Assembly: GCA_001724025.1 (NCBI GenBank)
Contig: MEDJ01000009.1
Location: 167,777-231,776, forward strand
Direction: 5' to 3'
DNA: 64,000 nucleotides
Origin: Acidobacteria bacterium SCN 69-37
GTDB taxonomy: Bacteria; Acidobacteriota; Vicinamibacteria; Vicinamibacterales; SCN-69-37
Shown: piece by piece, positions 4,398 to 44,243 of the stretch
Layout of the letters: the number at the start of each line of letters is the position of its first letter
Position numbering within the stretch: position 1 is the first letter of the stretch
Made by a program: the position numbers and the translations under genes
The notes under the pieces: generated by a model
The model's input: the letters and a program-made list of their open reading frames with translations, nothing else
Told to the model about the DNA's origin: nothing
The model's database searches: none

Positions 4398-5228
4398 ATG
4401 TCGTCGCTCACCACGATCAGGCCCGTCGCCGCGCGACAGGCGGCCCCGCCAGCGCCCGACGCGCCGCCGCCCCCTGTCAAGATCCGCGCGGATCGGCTGA
4501 GCTTCCACTACGGGCAGACGCAGGCGCTCACCGACATCTCGCTCGAGATCCCGACGAAGCTCGTGACGGCGTTCATCGGCCCCTCGGGGTGCGGCAAGAG
4601 CACGTTCCTGCGCACGCTCAACCGCATGAACGACATCGTCCCCGGGGCCCGCGTCGAGGGGCGCGTCGAGATCGACGGCACCGACATCTACGCGCCGCGC
4701 ACCGATGTCGTGGCGCTGCGCCGGCGTGTCGGCATGGTGTTCCAGACCTCGAACCCGTTCCCCACCTCGATCTTCGACAACGTCGCGTACGGCCTGCGGC
4801 TCAACGGCCTGGCGACCGGACGGCACGATCTCGAGGGCCAGGTGGAGGCCAGCCTGAAGGCCGCCGGACTCTGGACCGAGGTCCGCGACCGGCTGCACGA
4901 GTCGGCGCTGGCGCTCTCGGGCGGCCAGCAGCAGCGGCTCTGCATCGCGCGCGCCCTGGCGATCAGGCCCGAGGTCCTGCTCATGGACGAGCCCGCGTCG
5001 GCGCTCGATCCCATCGCCACGCAGCACATCGAGGAACTGATCTACGAACTGAAGCGCGACTATACGATCGTGATCGTCACGCACAACATGCAGCAGGCCG
5101 CGCGCGTGTCGGACGTGACCGCGTTCTTCTGGCTCGGCCGGCTGATCGAGTCCGGAGCGACGGCCGCGCTGTTCACCAACCCGCAGGAATCGCTGACGGA
5201 AGCCTACGTCACCGGGCGCTTCGGTTGA
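4398..5228 (+). CDS. pstB: Phosphate ABC transporter ATP-binding protein
   Basis: PstB powers high-affinity phosphate import with PstSCA. Walker [10 protein letters not shown] is at about residues 61-69. The family marker [11 protein letters not shown] follows, then the signature [15 protein letters not shown] and Walker [14 protein letters not shown]. An unusual Ala/Pro-rich stretch of about 25 residues precedes the ABC domain. The ATG at 4398 has an AGGGGG ribosome site. The gene sits 5 bp after ppx and 17 bp before phoU, a likely operon. pstS, pstC and pstA are absent here and must lie elsewhere. Confidence 0.94.
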
Positions 5229-5245
5229 GACGGGATCGGCACGCC

Positions 5246-5920
5246 ATGGAACGACACGTCCCGCATTTCCAGGAAGAGCTCGACACGCTCAAGACCCGGC
5301 TGCTCGCGATGGGCGGTCTGGCCGAGGACCGCGTGCGTCTGGCCGTGCGCGCCCTCGTCGACCGCGACGCCCCGATGCTCGACACGGTGCTCGTGAGCGA
5401 CGAGGCGATCAACCGCCTGCACATCGAGATCGACGACCGCTGCCTGAAGCTGCTCGCGCTGCGCCAGCCGATGGCCATCGACCTGCGGGCCATCGTGTCG
5501 GCCGTGAAGATCAACACGGACCTCGAACGGGTCGGCGACCTGGCCGTGAACATCGCCGAGGCCGCCGCGCGCTACCTGCAGCACCCGCCGGTCAAGGAGC
5601 TGATCGACATTCCGCGCATGGCCGATCTCGCCAAGGACATGCTGCGCGATGCGCTCGACGCGTTCGTCAGGCGCGACCTCCAACTGGCCCGCCACGTGCT
5701 CGATCGCGACGACGCGCTCGATACATTGAAGATCCACGTATTCAGATCCCTGCTCGATCACATGATGCGCGCTCCGGACACGATCGAGCCGGCGATGGAC
5801 CTCATCCTCATTTCGCGCCATCTCGAGCGGATCGGCGACCATGCCACGAACGTGGCCGAGGACGTGATTTTCCTCGTCTCGGCCCGCGACGTCCGCCACC
5901 ACCAGCACGACCTGCCCTGA
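5246..5920 (+). CDS. phoU: Phosphate transport regulator PhoU
   Basis: PhoU is a cytoplasmic all-helical protein that dampens the phosphate sensor kinase through the Pst transporter. The 224-residue protein consists of two tandem PhoU helical bundles. They show the metal-site pattern (N-terminal DLERVGDLAVNIAE and C-terminal HLERIGDHATNVAEDV, each an E/D-x3-D-type motif). It starts 17 bp after pstB. Length and both motifs fit the family well. Confidence 0.94.
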   Translation: MERHVPHFQEELDTLKTRLLAMGGLAEDRVRLAVRALVDRDAPMLDTVLVSDEAINRLHIEIDDRCLKLLALRQPMAIDLRAIVSAVKINTDLERVGDLAVNIAEAAARYLQHPPVKELIDIPRMADLAKDMLRDALDAFVRRDLQLARHVLDRDDALDTLKIHVFRSLLDHMMRAPDTIEPAMDLILISRHLERIGDHATNVAEDVIFLVSARDVRHHQHDLP

Positions 5921-6027
5921 AGACGGCGGCCACTGATACTGGCCCCCCGCACCCGCGTCGACGCCATCGGCCGCCCCGCTCGTACAGGCCACGTGGATCG
6001 CTTGCACAGGCGGGCCGCGTGATCCCA

Positions 6028-6033
6028 TAGAAT
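6028..6033 (+). promoter_or_regulatory. -10 hexamer TAGAAT of yacG, near-leaderless
   Basis: TAGAAT ends 6 nt before the yacG ATG. A TTGCAC at 6002-6007 is a possible -35 but with a long 20-bp spacer. Confidence 0.45.
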
Positions 6034-6039
6034 ACGCAC

Positions 6040-6243
6040 ATGCCTTCCCCATCGCTGTGTGTCTTCTGTCGCCAGCGCGCGGCGGAAGACCGGTATCGGC
6101 CGTTCTGCAGCGAGCGCTGCAAGATGGCCGATCTGGGTCGGTGGCTGAACGGCGCCTATGCCGTCCCCGGCCAGCCTGCATCCGGGACGGACCACCCCGT
6201 CGTCGATTCCCAGGTCGACGACGATGAGGATCGGGTTCGTTGA
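6040..6243 (+). CDS. yacG: YacG-type zinc-binding DNA gyrase inhibitor
   Basis: This 67-residue protein carries the YacG zinc ribbon: CVFC near residues 7-10 and FCSERCKMADLGRW around 26-40, the family hallmark. YacG of E. coli binds GyrB and inhibits gyrase. The acidic C-terminal tail (QVDDDEDR) is also typical. The gene lies 31 bp upstream of the citrate synthase gene on the same strand. It is usually found near coaE/yacF-type genes, so this neighbourhood is uncommon. Confidence 0.85.
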   Translation: MPSPSLCVFCRQRAAEDRYRPFCSERCKMADLGRWLNGAYAVPGQPASGTDHPVVDSQVDDDEDRVR

Positions 6244-6274
6244 GATTCATTGCTGCACGAGATCGACGTTGACC

Positions 6275-7549
<1,275 letters not shown>

Positions 7550-7556
7550 TCGCCGC

Positions 7557-8588
7557 ATGCGTCGTCGAGCCGTTGTCTGCCTCGGCGTGATGATGGTCGT
7601 CTCGGCCGTCATCGGCGCCGGGCCCGCGGCGTGGCCCGGCAAGGCACAGGCCCCGAGCTTCGACGGCGCGCGGGCGTTCGCGCACGTCGAGCGGCTCGTG
7701 GCTCTCGGTCCGCGGCCGGCCGGGTCACCTGCGCTGCGTCAGGCCCGCGCGTATCTCACCCGTCAACTTGCCTCACTCGGCCTGACGGTGCAGGAGCAGC
7801 CTTTCACCGCCAGCACGCCCGTCGGGCCTGTCGAGATGGTCAACCTCATCGTCCGTCTGCCCGGCGATCGCCCGGAGCGGATCCTGGTGGCCGGGCACTA
7901 CGACACGAAGCCCATGCGCGAACCGTTCGTGGGCGCCAACGACGGCGGATCGAGCGCGGCGTTCCTCGTCGAACTCGCGCGCGTGCTCGTCGCGCGTCCG
8001 CAGGCGTTGACCTACGAGATCATCTGGTTCGATGGCGAGGAAGCGTTCTGCGAGGGCTGGACCGAATGCGGATCGGCGGCCCGTCCCGACAACACGTACG
8101 GCAGCCGCGCGTACGTCGATGCCGCGCGCGCGGCCGGCGCGCTCCCGAGTCTGAAGGCGCTCGTGCTCGTCGACATGATTGGCGATCGCCAGCTCGAGAT
8201 CCGGCGCGATACGAACTCCACGCCGTGGCTCGTCGACACCGTATGGGCCGCCGCGCGGCGTCTCGGCCACGCACGCACGTTCGTCGAGCGCGACCTGGCG
8301 GTCGAGGACGACCATCTCCCCTTCCTCCAGGCCGGCGTCCCGTCCGTCGACCTGATCGATCTCGACTACCCTGCGTGGCACACGCCAGCCGACACGATCG
8401 ATCAGGTCAGCCCCGACAGCCTGCAGATCGTCGGCGACGTCCTGCTCGACGCGCTGCCCGCGATCGAACGAGGCCTGACGGGAAGTGAGAAGTCAGAAGT
8501 AAGAAGTCAAGAGTTCCAGAAACTCAGAAGTTCGAAGTTTGAACTTCGAAGTTCTAAGTTCTCCGCACTTCTGACTTCTTACTTCTGA
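7557..8588 (+). CDS. Secreted M28-family glutaminyl-peptide cyclotransferase-like enzyme
   Basis: An N-terminal signal peptide (VVCLGVMMVVSAVIGAGPAA) precedes a single-zinc M28 domain. The metal ligands are recognisable in VAGHYDTKP, GANDGGSS, FDGEEAF and YPAWHTPADT. FDGEEAF, YGSRAYV and VEDDHLPFLQAGVP closely follow the layout of animal and bacterial glutaminyl cyclases, which turn N-terminal Gln into pyroglutamate; an aminopeptidase is the alternative. The final 34 residues (Ser/Lys/Arg-rich) are not part of the fold: they are translated from the palindromic repeat downstream. The gene starts 7 bp after gltA. Confidence 0.82.
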   Translation: MRRRAVVCLGVMMVVSAVIGAGPAAWPGKAQAPSFDGARAFAHVERLVALGPRPAGSPALRQARAYLTRQLASLGLTVQEQPFTASTPVGPVEMVNLIVRLPGDRPERILVAGHYDTKPMREPFVGANDGGSSAAFLVELARVLVARPQALTYEIIWFDGEEAFCEGWTECGSAARPDNTYGSRAYVDAARAAGALPSLKALVLVDMIGDRQLEIRRDTNSTPWLVDTVWAAARRLGHARTFVERDLAVEDDHLPFLQAGVPSVDLIDLDYPAWHTPADTIDQVSPDSLQIVGDVLLDALPAIERGLTGSEKSEVRSQEFQKLRSSKFELRSSKFSALLTSYF

Positions 8589-37657: not shown

Positions 37658-37737
37658 GAATCAGCCGGCCTGACGCTACACGGACCCGGCATGCGCCGTC
37701 ATCGTCGCCCGGCTCGGGCGTCGGTGCGCGGTGCTGG

Positions 37738-37743
37738 TAGAGT
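37738..37743 (+). promoter_or_regulatory. -10-like TAGAGT upstream of the MFS gene
   Basis: TAGAGT lies 29 nt before the chosen ATG at 37773. It would place the transcription start after the alternative in-frame start at 37731, which supports the shorter protein. Confidence 0.35.
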
Positions 37744-37772
37744 CTCGTCGTCACCGGACGACGACACGCCCC

Positions 37773-38924
37773 ATGTTCTCCAGTCGATCGAACGATACGC
37801 CGGCCACGCGCCTGGCCACACGTTTGTCCTTCTTTGCCGCCGGTGTCGGGGCCGCCTCCTGGGCCCCGCTCGTGCCGTACGCCAAGGCGCGCCTGGCCAT
37901 CGACGACGGGATGCTGGGCGTCCTGTTGTTGTGCCTGGGGACAGGGTCGGTGCTGGTGATGCCCGCGGCGGGCGGTCTCATCGGACGCTTCGGCAGTCGC
38001 GCCGTGATTCTCGCCGCCGGCGTCGGGTACGCGCTCGCCCTGCCTGGCCTGGCGATGGGCGGCAGCCTGGCCATCGTGGCCATGTCACTCGTCCTGTTCG
38101 GCGCCTCGCTCGGCGCCATGGACGTGGCGATGAACGTCCATGCGGTCGACGTCGAACGCGACGCCCCCGTGCCGATCATGTCGGGCTTTCACGGCCTGTT
38201 CAGCGTGGGCGGCGTTGTCGGCGCGGGCGGCATCGCGACGCTGCTGGCGACCGGCGCCTCGCTCGGCATGGCGACGGTGGCCGGCATTCTCGTCGTGGCC
38301 GCCTCGCTCGCGGTCGCGGCGCCGCGGTATCTGACGGCACGGCCCAACGCGCAGGCGCCGTTCGTCGTGCGGCCGCGCGGGCTCGTGCTGCTGCTCGGTG
38401 TGCTGGCGTTCGTGACGTTCCTGGTCGAAGGCGCCGTCCTCGACTGGAGCGCTCTCCTGATGACGACATCGCTGGACGTGCCGGCCGCGCAGGGCGGCAT
38501 CGCCTATGCCGTCTTCTCGGTGGCGATGACCGTCGGCCGCCTCATCGGCGATCGCATCGTCGCGCTGCTGGGCCGGCGCCGCGTCCTGGTGTGCGGCGGA
38601 CTCGTCGCCAGCGCGGGCCTGGCGCTGGTCGTGTGGACGTCGACGCCGGCGGTGGCCCTGGCCGGCTTCCTGCTCATCGGCATCGGCGCGTCGAACGTCG
38701 TGCCCGTCCTGTTCACGCAGGCCGGCCGGCAGACGTCCATGCCGACCGGGCTGGCCATTGCGGCCATGACCACGATCGGCTACGCCGGGATTCTCGCGGG
38801 ACCTGCCGTCGTGGGCTTCGTGGCGCAGGCGTTCACGCTGCCCGCAGCGTTCGCGATGCTGGCAGTGCTGATGCTGCTCGTGCCCGTGTGTGCGCGCGTG
38901 GCCACAAAGTCTCCCCTGCCCTGA
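37773..38924 (+). CDS. MFS transporter, YbjJ-like
   Basis: The 383-residue protein has about 12 hydrophobic helices of the major facilitator fold. The helix-4 region GASLGAMDVAMNVHAVDVE and the following SGFHGLFSVGGVVGAG match the YbjJ/YfcJ-like group, which is poorly characterised. The substrate is unknown. It follows the opp operon by about 115 bp but has its own promoter-like box. Confidence 0.82.
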   Translation: MFSSRSNDTPATRLATRLSFFAAGVGAASWAPLVPYAKARLAIDDGMLGVLLLCLGTGSVLVMPAAGGLIGRFGSRAVILAAGVGYALALPGLAMGGSLAIVAMSLVLFGASLGAMDVAMNVHAVDVERDAPVPIMSGFHGLFSVGGVVGAGGIATLLATGASLGMATVAGILVVAASLAVAAPRYLTARPNAQAPFVVRPRGLVLLLGVLAFVTFLVEGAVLDWSALLMTTSLDVPAAQGGIAYAVFSVAMTVGRLIGDRIVALLGRRRVLVCGGLVASAGLALVVWTSTPAVALAGFLLIGIGASNVVPVLFTQAGRQTSMPTGLAIAAMTTIGYAGILAGPAVVGFVAQAFTLPAAFAMLAVLMLLVPVCARVATKSPLP

Positions 38925-40432: not shown

Positions 40433-41806
40433 TCAGTGCGGATCGAGCGCCACGAGGCCGTCGGCCAGCCGATCGATCCAGGCGAGGTAATCGTGGCCAC
40501 CCGCGAACTCGCGCGCGATCGCGTCGTGGCCTTTCAGCCGGAGCACATCACGCAAGTGGCGGGTGGTGTCGAGAATGCCGCTGCCCTCGTCGGTGGTGCC
40601 CGCCTCGAGCAGACCGGCGGCCAGGTAGAACCGCACGTCCCGCCGCGGCCACGCGATGACGCGCTGCGCCATCGCGTTGGCCTCGGCGAACGGATTGCGT
40701 GACGCCGGCGGACCGGCGTCACGCTCGGGCGCCCACCAGAACGATCCAGACAGGCTGATCACGTTCCCGAACGCGTCGGGCCGCTCGAGCGCCGCGGCCG
40801 TGGCGGCCAGTCCCCCGTAGCTCGATCCCGCGACGATCACATCGCGGGCGGCTGCGGAAACGGGATGGCGGGCGCGGATCCACGGGAGCAGTTCGTCCGC
40901 GAGGAAACGGGTGAACCGGGGATTGGCCGTGAGCTCGTCCGCGCGGCTCGTGCTCGTGGCGTTCGCCACGAGCACGGCCATCGTCGGCGCGATACGGCCG
41001 TCGGCCGCCAGCGCCGCGAGCATCGCCGGCACGTCGACGGCGCGCGCATACGACTCGCCGTCGAGGAGCACCAGCAGGCGCCAGGGCCGCGCGGTGGTGC
41101 GGCCGGCATCCGCCGGCCGCACCACCGCGACGTCCCGGGTGTTGTCGAGCGTCGCACTCGTGACGCGCTGCCAGGTGAGCGCGCCCGCGGGCCGCGGCCC
41201 GGGGAGCGGCTGCCACGACGGGCGTGGCGCGCCGTCGAGCTCGAGGATGGACGCGACGCCCGACCCACCGGCCGATGGATCGTTCGACCATTGGCGGGAA
41301 TTGAGCGGGTCGGGCTGCGCCCCGGCCAGGATCGCCCGGCGCAGGGCGTCGCGCGACTGGCCGGCCGCAACGTCGAGATCCGGCACGAACTGATACGACA
41401 GCCGCGTCCCCCGGGGCAGGCGCGTCGTCTTGTACCAGATATCGGTGCCCGGCAGCCGCGTGAGCCACGGGGTGTCGGTCCCGACGAGGCGGACGGACCA
41501 GAAGAGGCGGACGTTGCGCGTCGTGTCGGTGCCGCGCCACAGGAATGTGACGAGTTGGCGGGCTGCGTCCAGCGGCTCGACGAGCGGCGCGCCGTCTCGG
41601 GCGATGCGCGCCCAGAATTGCGCCACGGCCGTGCTCGACGATCCGGCCTCGAGGCGCGGACTCTCGAGCCCGGTACCGGCAGGCGCGGCCGGCGCCTGCG
41701 CGGCGCCGGCCGTGGCGGATCCGGCTGGCGCGACGGACGTGGCGGATCCGGCTGGCGCGACGGACGTGGCGGCGGCCAGCAGGGCCGCCGCCACGAGGGC
41801 GGTCAC
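40433..41806 (-). CDS. Secreted enterochelin-esterase-like hydrolase
   Basis: The 457-residue protein starts at GTG 41806 with a signal peptide (TALVAAALLAAATS). A Fes-type N-terminal domain (FLWRGTDTTRNVRLFW, then LPRGTRLSYQFVPD) precedes an alpha/beta-hydrolase esterase domain. The nucleophile motif is GSSYGGLAA and the His is in GGHDYLAW. Such enzymes cut ferric enterobactin or related tri-ester siderophores. The signal-peptide region carries a 27-bp tandem duplication (TSVAPAGSA twice). The GTG start is inside the left 8-bp inverted repeat of the inverted segment. In the opposite orientation the gene would directly follow the TonB receptor. Confidence 0.85.
   Translation of the reverse strand: MTALVAAALLAAATSVAPAGSATSVAPAGSATAGAAQAPAAPAGTGLESPRLEAGSSSTAVAQFWARIARDGAPLVEPLDAARQLVTFLWRGTDTTRNVRLFWSVRLVGTDTPWLTRLPGTDIWYKTTRLPRGTRLSYQFVPDLDVAAGQSRDALRRAILAGAQPDPLNSRQWSNDPSAGGSGVASILELDGAPRPSWQPLPGPRPAGALTWQRVTSATLDNTRDVAVVRPADAGRTTARPWRLLVLLDGESYARAVDVPAMLAALAADGRIAPTMAVLVANATSTSRADELTANPRFTRFLADELLPWIRARHPVSAAARDVIVAGSSYGGLAATAAALERPDAFGNVISLSGSFWWAPERDAGPPASRNPFAEANAMAQRVIAWPRRDVRFYLAAGLLEAGTTDEGSGILDTTRHLRDVLRLKGHDAIAREFAGGHDYLAWIDRLADGLVALDPH
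41712..41765. repeat. 27-bp tandem duplication in the esterase signal region
   Basis: Two identical copies of a 27-bp unit beginning GTGGCGGATCCGGCTGGCGC encode a repeated nonapeptide after the signal peptide. A partial third copy follows. Confidence 0.9.
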
Positions 41807-42475
41807 GATCGTCGGATCGCCCGAGCTGGACCCCGAGACGAGCGGCGCCAGCGAGCTCGGCGTCCAGCTGGCGCAGGACGCCTGGCGCGCCTCGGTCACG
41901 GTGTTCCGGAACGATCTGAAAGACATGATCGACATCACGAGCCGCACGGCCAACCGTGAACAGGCGCCGGGCTTCCCGAACTTCGTCGGCTTCCTGCCCG
42001 ATGGCCGGCCGATCTTCCGGTACCAGAACATCGCCCGTGTCCGGACGGTGGGTGTGGAGTCGTCGCTGCGCGCGCAACTGGGCGCCGGCGTCGGTGCGCA
42101 GGCCAACTACACGTATCTGGATTCGACGAATCGGAGCGGGACCACGCCTGTGCCGCTCGCGTATCAGCCCTCGCATTCGGGGAACGTCACGCTCGACTGG
42201 CAGGGCACGGGACGACTGGGGGCGTACGTGACCGTGCAATACTTCGGACACCAGTACACGTTCGTGCCGGCCTCGGGCGTCAACATGTCCGAGGTCGACG
42301 GGTTTGCGACCGTCGACCTCGGGGCGAACGTGCGGCTGACCCCCACGCTGCTGCTGCGTGGCGGCCTGCTGAACGCGGCGGATCGGCGGCTCGATCGAAC
42401 GGTCTCCGACGACTTCAACGCAGATGGCCGGCGATTCTTTCTCTCGCTGGCCGCGCGGTTCTGAGAGTCGTGACC
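41801..42475. other. Inverted DNA segment bounded by 8-bp inverted repeats
   Basis: GGTCACGA at 41801-41808 and TCGTGACC at 42468-42475 are exact inverted copies. The 659 bp between them hold the missing C-terminal coding part of the adjacent TonB receptor on the wrong strand. Joining minus-strand base 42468 to plus-strand base 41809 restores the frame (codons CGG-GTC-ACG-ATC-GTC). The inversion could be a phase-variable switch, a fixed rearrangement or an assembly/strain chimera. Confidence 0.88.
41809..42464 (+). pseudogene. Displaced C-terminal barrel of the TonB receptor (inverted)
   Basis: The frame reads SPELDPETSGASELGVQ, the typical N-P-x-L-x-P-E-T-S-x-x-x-E-L-G motif of TonB receptor barrels. 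Barrel strands follow (VFRNDLKDMIDI, VESSLRAQLGAGVGAQANYTYLDS), and it ends in a terminal aromatic (FFLSLAARF), the outer-membrane C-terminal signature. It has no start codon or ribosome site of its own at the expected place. It is the exact complement of what the gene at 42415-44199 lacks. Confidence 0.9.
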
Positions 42476-44199
42476 CGATCGATCAAACAGCCAACGGTGG
42501 CGCTTCCACACGAAACGGATCCCCACCGCGAGCTGCCCTGGAGCAGCGTGGGCGCGCGGAAGGCACCGGCCCACCCACCCTTGATGGTGAGGAGTGCCGT
42601 CGGGCTCACCACGAGGTAGGCGCGCGGCGTCACGTGACTGCCGAAGTTCTCGTGCTGCTCGACGCGGCCGCCGAGGGTCAGACGGACGGCATCGTGCAGC
42701 CGGATCTCGTCTTCCGCGAACACCGCGCCCGAGAGCACGGTCTCGTGCGTATCGCGTCCGTATTCCGGCGTGCCGGGCAGACCGGCCAGGGTCGTCGGAT
42801 CGTCGAGCCGCTGAGAGCGGATCTCGCTGCCCACGGTCAGCATCTGCCGCGTCCACGGCAGGACCACCCGGACATCGCCCGTGACATTGGCGGCTTCGTT
42901 CGGATTCGAGGCACCCGTGACGTTGCCGACGAGGTTCTGGATGACGTCGCCATAGACCTTCGCGTCGAGCACGGCCGCGCGCCACCGATGCTTGTAGCTC
43001 GACCCGAGTCCCAGCCGCCGCAGCGTGAAGCCGCCGTGGTCGCGATCGCTGTAATCCCACTGCACGCCGATGTCGTCGGCACCGGTGGGCGTCCAGGCCA
43101 GCTCCCCGCCGACCTCCGCGTTCTGCTGGCGCTCGAATCCGGCCAGCGGGGCCGCGCCATCGGGACGGTCGGGGTTCACGCGACCGTCGGCCGCCCGGTG
43201 ATTGACACTGCCGTGCAGCTTCAGCCCGAGCACGCCGGCCACGAGCGGTCCGCTCACGTTGAAGCCGCCCTGGTAGGCGTCACCGGCCTCGCGCTCCTGC
43301 TGGAGCGTCGCGTCGGTGGACAGCCCGCCCGTCCAGCGCGTGCCCACACGCTTCGTGATGATGTTGACGACGCCACCGATCGCGTCCGAGCCGTAGAGCG
43401 ACGACATCGGACCGCGGACCACCTCGACACGCTCGATGGCCTCCATCGGCAACCAGCCCGAGTCGAAATCGTTCCCGCGGAACATCACCGCGTTCGAGTT
43501 CACGCGCCGGCCATCGACGAGCATCATCGTGTAGGCCGATCCGAGCCCGCGCATCTGGATGTTCTTCAGGTTGCCGCCACGCGAGAGCGTGATGCCCTCG
43601 ACCCGGGTGAGCAGGTCGGTGAGATCGCGCACGGGCCACCTGTCGATCTCCTCGCGCGAGACCACCGAGATGCTGGCGGGTGCCGTGGCGAGGGCGGTTT
43701 CCACCCCGGCCGCGGTGACGACCACGCGCACGTTGTCGACGAACGACGCCAGGCGCAGGGTCACGCGCAGCGGCGCCGCGCCGGACCGGGCCTCGATCGC
43801 CTGCGTGTCGATCTGGAACCCGGCGAGCGTGGTGTGCAGGGCGTACGTCCCGGCCGGGGCCGTGAGCGCGAAGCGGCCGTCGGTGCCGGAGAACGCGCGC
43901 ACGACGGTTCCGCCGCACTCGAGCGCGATCGCCGCACCGGGCAGCACGCTGCCCGACTCGTCGGTCACGGTCCCCGCGACCGCGACGCGCGGGGCGTCGG
44001 CCGCAACGCGACAGGCCGCCGGCGCGGCGACGACAGCAGAGGTGGACTGCGCAGCCGCGGCGGCCGGCAGCAGGATCAGCATCAGGCCGCCGGACAGCGT
44101 GCCGGCAGCGAGCATGGGGAGACGACGACGATTCAGGGGCAGGGTCACATGACGAAACAGATGAAGGCACCAGCCGACGGCCGGACGAGCGGGACACAC
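42415..44199 (-). CDS. TonB-dependent siderophore receptor, C-terminal barrel replaced by the inversion
   Basis: The present frame gives 594 residues. It has a signal peptide (LMLILLPAAAAAQ), a CarboxypepD_reg-like domain (VAGTVTDESGSVLPGAAIAL), a plug domain (APASISVVSREEIDRWPVRDL; GPMSSLYGSDAIGGVVNIITKR, as in FepA/CirA) and about half of the barrel. It then runs into antisense sequence after VGCLIDRVT. The start is GTG at 44199 because AGGAGG lies 6 nt upstream; GTG 44148 and ATG 44115 are alternatives. With the segment turned back the protein would be 795 residues, a normal receptor length. The esterase gene would follow, pointing to uptake and hydrolysis of a catecholate-type siderophore. 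Confidence 0.88.
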   Translation of the reverse strand: MCPARPAVGWCLHLFRHVTLPLNRRRLPMLAAGTLSGGLMLILLPAAAAAQSTSAVVAAPAACRVAADAPRVAVAGTVTDESGSVLPGAAIALECGGTVVRAFSGTDGRFALTAPAGTYALHTTLAGFQIDTQAIEARSGAAPLRVTLRLASFVDNVRVVVTAAGVETALATAPASISVVSREEIDRWPVRDLTDLLTRVEGITLSRGGNLKNIQMRGLGSAYTMMLVDGRRVNSNAVMFRGNDFDSGWLPMEAIERVEVVRGPMSSLYGSDAIGGVVNIITKRVGTRWTGGLSTDATLQQEREAGDAYQGGFNVSGPLVAGVLGLKLHGSVNHRAADGRVNPDRPDGAAPLAGFERQQNAEVGGELAWTPTGADDIGVQWDYSDRDHGGFTLRRLGLGSSYKHRWRAAVLDAKVYGDVIQNLVGNVTGASNPNEAANVTGDVRVVLPWTRQMLTVGSEIRSQRLDDPTTLAGLPGTPEYGRDTHETVLSGAVFAEDEIRLHDAVRLTLGGRVEQHENFGSHVTPRAYLVVSPTALLTIKGGWAGAFRAPTLLQGSSRWGSVSCGSATVGCLIDRVTTLRTARPARERIAGHLR

Positions 44200-44227
44200 A
44201 ACGCACCTCCTGGAGGGCGAATCACTA

Positions 44228-44243
44228 GTGAGACTAGTCTCAC
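44228..44243. promoter_or_regulatory. 16-bp perfect palindromic operator of the TonB receptor
   Basis: GTGAGACTAGTCTCAC is a perfect palindrome (with an extra ACTAGT copy just to the left). It lies between a -10-like TAGAGT (minus strand, 44256-44261) and the AGGAGG of the receptor gene, covering the expected transcription start. A repressor site responding to iron or another metal is likely; the regulator family is not clear. Confidence 0.6.

Follow-up and report, generated by a model that had tools for sequence, protein, structure and literature searches.

A TonB-dependent siderophore receptor gene at this locus breaks off within its β-barrel, and the missing barrel end lies on the opposite strand, beside an esterase gene. 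The arrangement raises the question of whether a block of DNA is switched back and forth here or was turned once and fixed, and between which bases the exchange took place. We consider it probable that an acquired receptor–esterase pair was broken by a recent microhomology-type inversion of ~668 bp, with GATCG and CGATC as the exchanged sequences. Positions are those of the window, the whole stretch of 64,000 nucleotides that was analysed.

Receptor and esterase genes

The following features define the two parts of the receptor gene and their surroundings.

42480–44199, minus strand: N-terminal part of a CirA-like, TonB-dependent receptor for catecholate siderophores (reading frame, domain and profile matches)
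41808–42464, plus strand: C-terminal part of the same receptor, inverted relative to the remainder (reading frame, profile matches)
40433–41806, minus strand: Fes/PfeE-type esterase gene for enterochelin (ferri-enterobactin) (domain and profile matches)
44228–44243, no strand: GTGAGACTAGTCTCAC, a perfect palindrome of 16 bp upstream of the receptor, with no second exact copy in the genome

The N-terminal receptor part is composed of a signal peptide, a CarboxypepD_reg domain, a plug (PF07715, 1.4e-28) and the initial portion of the β-barrel. It starts at a GTG at position 44199, with AGGAGG upstream at 44206–44211. The minus-strand frame that opens here has 594 codons and runs through an antisense run to a stop at 42415; its family homology is lost after SCGSATVGCLI, at ~42480. 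The plus-strand frame 41808–42464 reads IVGSPELDPETS...FFLSLAARF, with a terminal Phe followed by TGA and no internal stop. The palindrome lies ~30 bp from the receptor start and is likely to be the operator of the receptor–esterase pair. Its single exact copy suggests that it may serve a local repressor rather than a global iron regulator.

CirA is the best NCBIfam model for both receptor parts. The N-terminal part matches positions 26–438 of this 663-position model and the C-terminal part positions 441–663. Alignment to the crystallized CirA sequence (2HDF) gives 6–414 and 417–639, and the barrel profile PF00593 (436 positions) is divided between the two parts in a complementary manner, at 21–253 and 262–435. 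The parts cover one family from end to end, without overlap and almost without gaps, indicating that they are complementary halves of one gene. This far exceeds chance coincidence: the split of the receptor is real. The initial annotation, which had described a TonB siderophore receptor divided by an inversion of ~0.66 kb, was correct in this respect, as the family profiles meet at the break.

The plug, the TonB-dependent barrel and the aromatic C-terminal end expected of a CirA/FepA-type receptor are all present. When the two parts are combined, plug and barrel match the full mature length of CirA, the colicin I and catecholate siderophore receptor (2HDF/2HDI, 9NN6). The receptor described here differs from CirA in its additional N-terminal CarboxypepD_reg domain, in its inversion-split gene and in its score, which, at 370 bits for one part and 130 for the other, lies below the curated equivalog cut-off of 745 (NF007478). 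We therefore assign it to a related family and do not call it CirA itself. Family membership and the esterase neighbour suggest that it would bind and import ferric catecholates.

The esterase gene adjoins the C-terminal receptor part. Its product contains PF11806 (Enterochelin_N) and PF00756, scores 226 bits with NF007758 (cut-off 222), as expected of an enterochelin esterase, and has an N-terminus that resembles a signal peptide. Past the signal peptide, a ~27-bp unit, GGATCCGGCTGGCGCGACGGACGTGGC, is repeated in tandem at 41718–41771 (SATSVAPAG repeated). In Pseudomonas aeruginosa, the ferri-enterobactin receptor PfeA and the neighbouring periplasmic esterase PfeE provide iron freed from the enterobactin of other organisms (PMC8001512). 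The locus described here likewise places a siderophore receptor beside a signal-peptide esterase, a layout for taking iron from foreign siderophores; it differs in that the receptor is CirA-like and the pair is broken. By its make-up, the pair would be expected to work like PfeA/PfeE, on a substrate presumed from the same features.

A scan of GTDB genome contigs, which detects close relatives only, returned a single match, in Asticcacaulis aquaticus. The same two genes occur there in the same order and intact (receptor 4878–6893, esterase 6893–8176), with identities of 49% and 46% to the two receptor parts and 40% to the esterase. They differ from the pair studied here in that the esterase ATG overlaps the receptor TGA (TGATG) and the CarboxypepD_reg domain is absent. 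Because receptor and esterase lie end to end on one strand in Asticcacaulis, it is the 41.81–42.48 kb block that is inverted here. The earlier expectation that turning the block back would place the esterase directly after the receptor stop agrees with this gene order, which as an ancestral state rests on one homologue of ~50% identity.

The site of exchange

Two pairs of short inverted repeats flank the inverted segment, and the two readings assign a 15-bp element to different genes.

41812–42479, no strand: the 668-bp inverted block with the best support, bounded by inverted repeats of 5 bp (breakpoint scan against the homologue profile)
41807–41811, plus strand: left-hand GATCG of the 5-bp match
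42480–42484, minus strand: right-hand counterpart of this 5-bp match (CGATC on the plus strand, GATCG on the minus strand)
41801–41808, plus strand: left copy of the 8-bp repeat, GGTCACGA, overlapping the esterase GTG start
42468–42475, plus strand: right copy of the 8-bp repeat, TCGTGACC
42470–42484, plus strand: 15-bp element GTGACCCGATCGATC (flip products at the two candidate breakpoints)

The initial annotation had placed the exchange at the 8-bp repeats. Both copies are located where it had reported them, and recomputing the flip of 41809–42467 gives the same single frame of 795 residues, reading GCLIDRVTIVGSPELD. We scanned 5041 breakpoint pairs, retained the full-frame products and scored each against a profile of 18 homologues. 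The 8-bp product scored 620.2 bits. The flip at GATCG/CGATC, for which six positions are equivalent, yields 790 residues reading GCLIVGSPELD and 624.4 bits, and the two best-scoring products, with breakpoints 1–3 bp outside the 5-bp match, reached up to 626.3 bits. The gaps between these scores are slight, and the profile does not tell the GATCG match from breakpoints 1–3 bp beyond it, which fit equally well; this counts against the exact placement at GATCG. Two homologues taken in the wrong frame remained in the profile, where their noise is equal for both candidate products; they were set aside in the pairwise comparison, which used the other 16.

Clearer evidence than the profile bits comes from the junction itself, which is gap-free and conserved in spacing. 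The junction of the GATCG product, SCGSATVGCLIVGSPELDPE, aligns without a gap to SCGSATTGCFIIGSTELEPE of the nearest homologue, and the flip gives GCLIVGSPELDPE here, equal in length to the homologue. With the 8-bp exchange, the intact receptor would instead read GCLIDRVTIVGSP, and its DRVTI residues, in a conserved loop, are present in none of the 16 homologues. Pairwise scores are higher for the GATCG product with 15 of the 16 and equal with one. A cysteine immediately precedes the junction in ten homologues, nine of which have the spacing C-x-[IM]-x-G; for eight of these nine the GATCG product gains +12 to +15.

The esterase start points in the same direction. Flipped at GATCG, the element GTGACCCGATCGATC supplies esterase codons 1–5 (VTRSI), in frame with the remainder, and the esterase begins VTRSIVTALVAAALLAAATS, with an arginine in the predicted signal peptide. 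Flipped at the 8-bp repeat, the same element becomes the DRVTI loop insertion in the receptor, and the esterase begins VTALVAAALLAAATS, in which a positive charge is absent. Signal peptides usually have a positively charged start, such as arginine, and the arginine-bearing start is therefore a second, independent sign for the GATCG exchange. The present GTG at 41806 has no preceding Shine–Dalgarno sequence. The claim that a flip would preserve the esterase start thus does not hold in simple form, as five codons including the signal-peptide arginine are severed from the gene.

On these comparisons of sequence, the exchange most likely took place at the 5-bp GATCG match, 15 bp from the 8-bp repeat; the earlier assignment to the 8-bp repeat is probably wrong, DRVTI being foreign to all 16 homologues and GATCG fitting nearly all of them better. 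Before the break, TCGTGACC would have stood twice at the esterase start as a direct repeat. A break between the two copies would turn them into an inverted pair, making the 8-bp repeat a by-product. Its right copy (42468–42475) is probably the original esterase start region, displaced by the inversion. No similarity extending beyond GATCG or GGTCACGA, as in a longer recombination site, was found by eye around the two points.

A fixed inversion with its exchange precisely at the 8-bp repeats, the intact form being a receptor with a private DRVTI loop insertion, has several points in its favour: eight bases are in register, a chance occurrence less likely than for five; the 795-residue frame is open; and loops can hold private insertions, so DRVTI is possible. 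We regard this reading as highly improbable, given the absence of the insertion from all homologues compared, the C-x-[IM]-x-G spacing conserved in nine of the ten cysteine-bearing homologues, and the uncharged esterase start that it implies.

As a separate observation, GATC occurs 10.7 times per kb in the window, ~4 times the expectation from base composition at 69% G+C.

Switch, chimera or fixed break

The initial annotation had offered both a switch and a fixed break; we favour the latter, and found no positive sign of the former. If the receptor were subject to on/off phase variation as an intragenic inverton, the block would flip at short repeats, so that some cells have the receptor and others lack it. 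Both receptor halves are open and undamaged, a flip at either repeat restores the full frame, and receptors on the cell surface, being used by phages and bacteriocins, make plausible targets; the absence of stops and frameshifts is just as compatible with a recent break. As in the invertons, intragenic ones among them, of Jiang et al. 2019 and Chanin et al. 2024 (both as cited in PMC11868660), a block within a gene is inverted between inverted repeats here, but the repeats are only 5–8 bp long, a linked recombinase is absent and a second orientation is not in evidence. Inverted repeats of 8 bp at 300–1500 bp spacing number 1319 pairs in 14 kb (36–50 kb), and one falls within 38 bp around two arbitrary breakpoints with a chance of 5.4%; the repeats here are thus at background level, whereas those of an inverton should be clearly longer. 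Recombinase matches in the genome comprise three of the serine type and eleven of the tyrosine type. The suggested search for a nearby invertase found no site-specific recombinase in the window, the nearest on the contig being a serine-type match at a distance of ~148 kb and a tyrosine-type match at ~172 kb, and hence no linked cognate enzyme of the kind that usually accompanies an inverton. Unlinked recombinases exist, and action from afar is possible. A flip at the longer repeat would also put five family-foreign residues into the receptor, and a search of the assembly for a flipped copy gave a single match, in one orientation. Phase variation consequently appears rather improbable. Its specific form, a 5–8 bp intragenic inverton served by an unlinked recombinase and switching receptor and esterase start together in an environmental bacterium, is distinctly improbable; if the block did flip in living cells, this would suggest that far shorter repeats than usual can sustain switching. 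Our literature search found no direct precedent for inversion-switched siderophore receptors and nothing useful on microhomology inversions in bacteria.

An assembly or library chimera, such as one in which a fragment was joined in reverse at its GATC ends, would also account for the arrangement. GATC lies within both 5-bp copies, making both exchange points GATC sites (the right-hand side is GATCGATC), which would matter if the library was prepared with a GATC-cutting enzyme, and the orientation is known here from the assembled sequence. A clean, balanced inversion would require two matching chimeras, however, several more GATC sites inside the block were left uncut, and an assembler is not misled by a repeat as short as 8 or 5 bp. 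We consider a chimera unlikely.

The favoured reading is a fixed inversion in a two-gene module acquired for the catecholate siderophore of another organism, a module in which an exported enterochelin esterase would have followed a CirA-like receptor of the outer membrane. A single ~668-bp inversion, probably a one-off event of the microhomology type, would have joined GATCG within the receptor to CGATC at the esterase start, turning the receptor's last 218 codons along with the gene junction. The receptor is thereby cut short to its first barrel strands and a nonsense tail, and the esterase is deprived of its first codons and of its place behind the receptor stop; for both genes, loss or impairment of function is predicted. 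The lack of stops and frameshifts in either part argues that the event was recent, and we infer that it was natural and not reversible. The locus would then offer a clean example of one small inversion disrupting two adjacent genes simultaneously, with an acquired siderophore-piracy module seen in the process of loss. It also cautions that a short inverted repeat flanking an inverted block may be a by-product and not the cause, a distinction that residue-level comparison with intact homologues can make.

Origin of the receptor–esterase pair

In a congener, the acidobacterial-type VWA gene and the PNP_UDP phosphorylase gene that flank the pair are neighbours, with ~140 bp between the aligned stretches. 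The corresponding interval here is 4.1 kb, and both receptor and esterase are absent from the congener. Protein searches found no orthologue in the family, among 162 genomes from the order or among 396 from the phylum, the best match in the phylum being 35% identical. DNA comparison with 60 relatives revealed short conserved stretches only, mainly in the plug. The comparison with related genomes that had been proposed earlier thus yielded an intact pair in Asticcacaulis aquaticus but no orthologue in the order and phylum genomes searched. The absence from the congener, together with the orthologue-free searches, points to horizontal transfer as the most likely source of the pair. Beyond the VWA gene, an MFS transporter gene (37731–38924) is likewise missing from the congener at that position; it is a second accessory insertion close by and may belong to the same acquisition.
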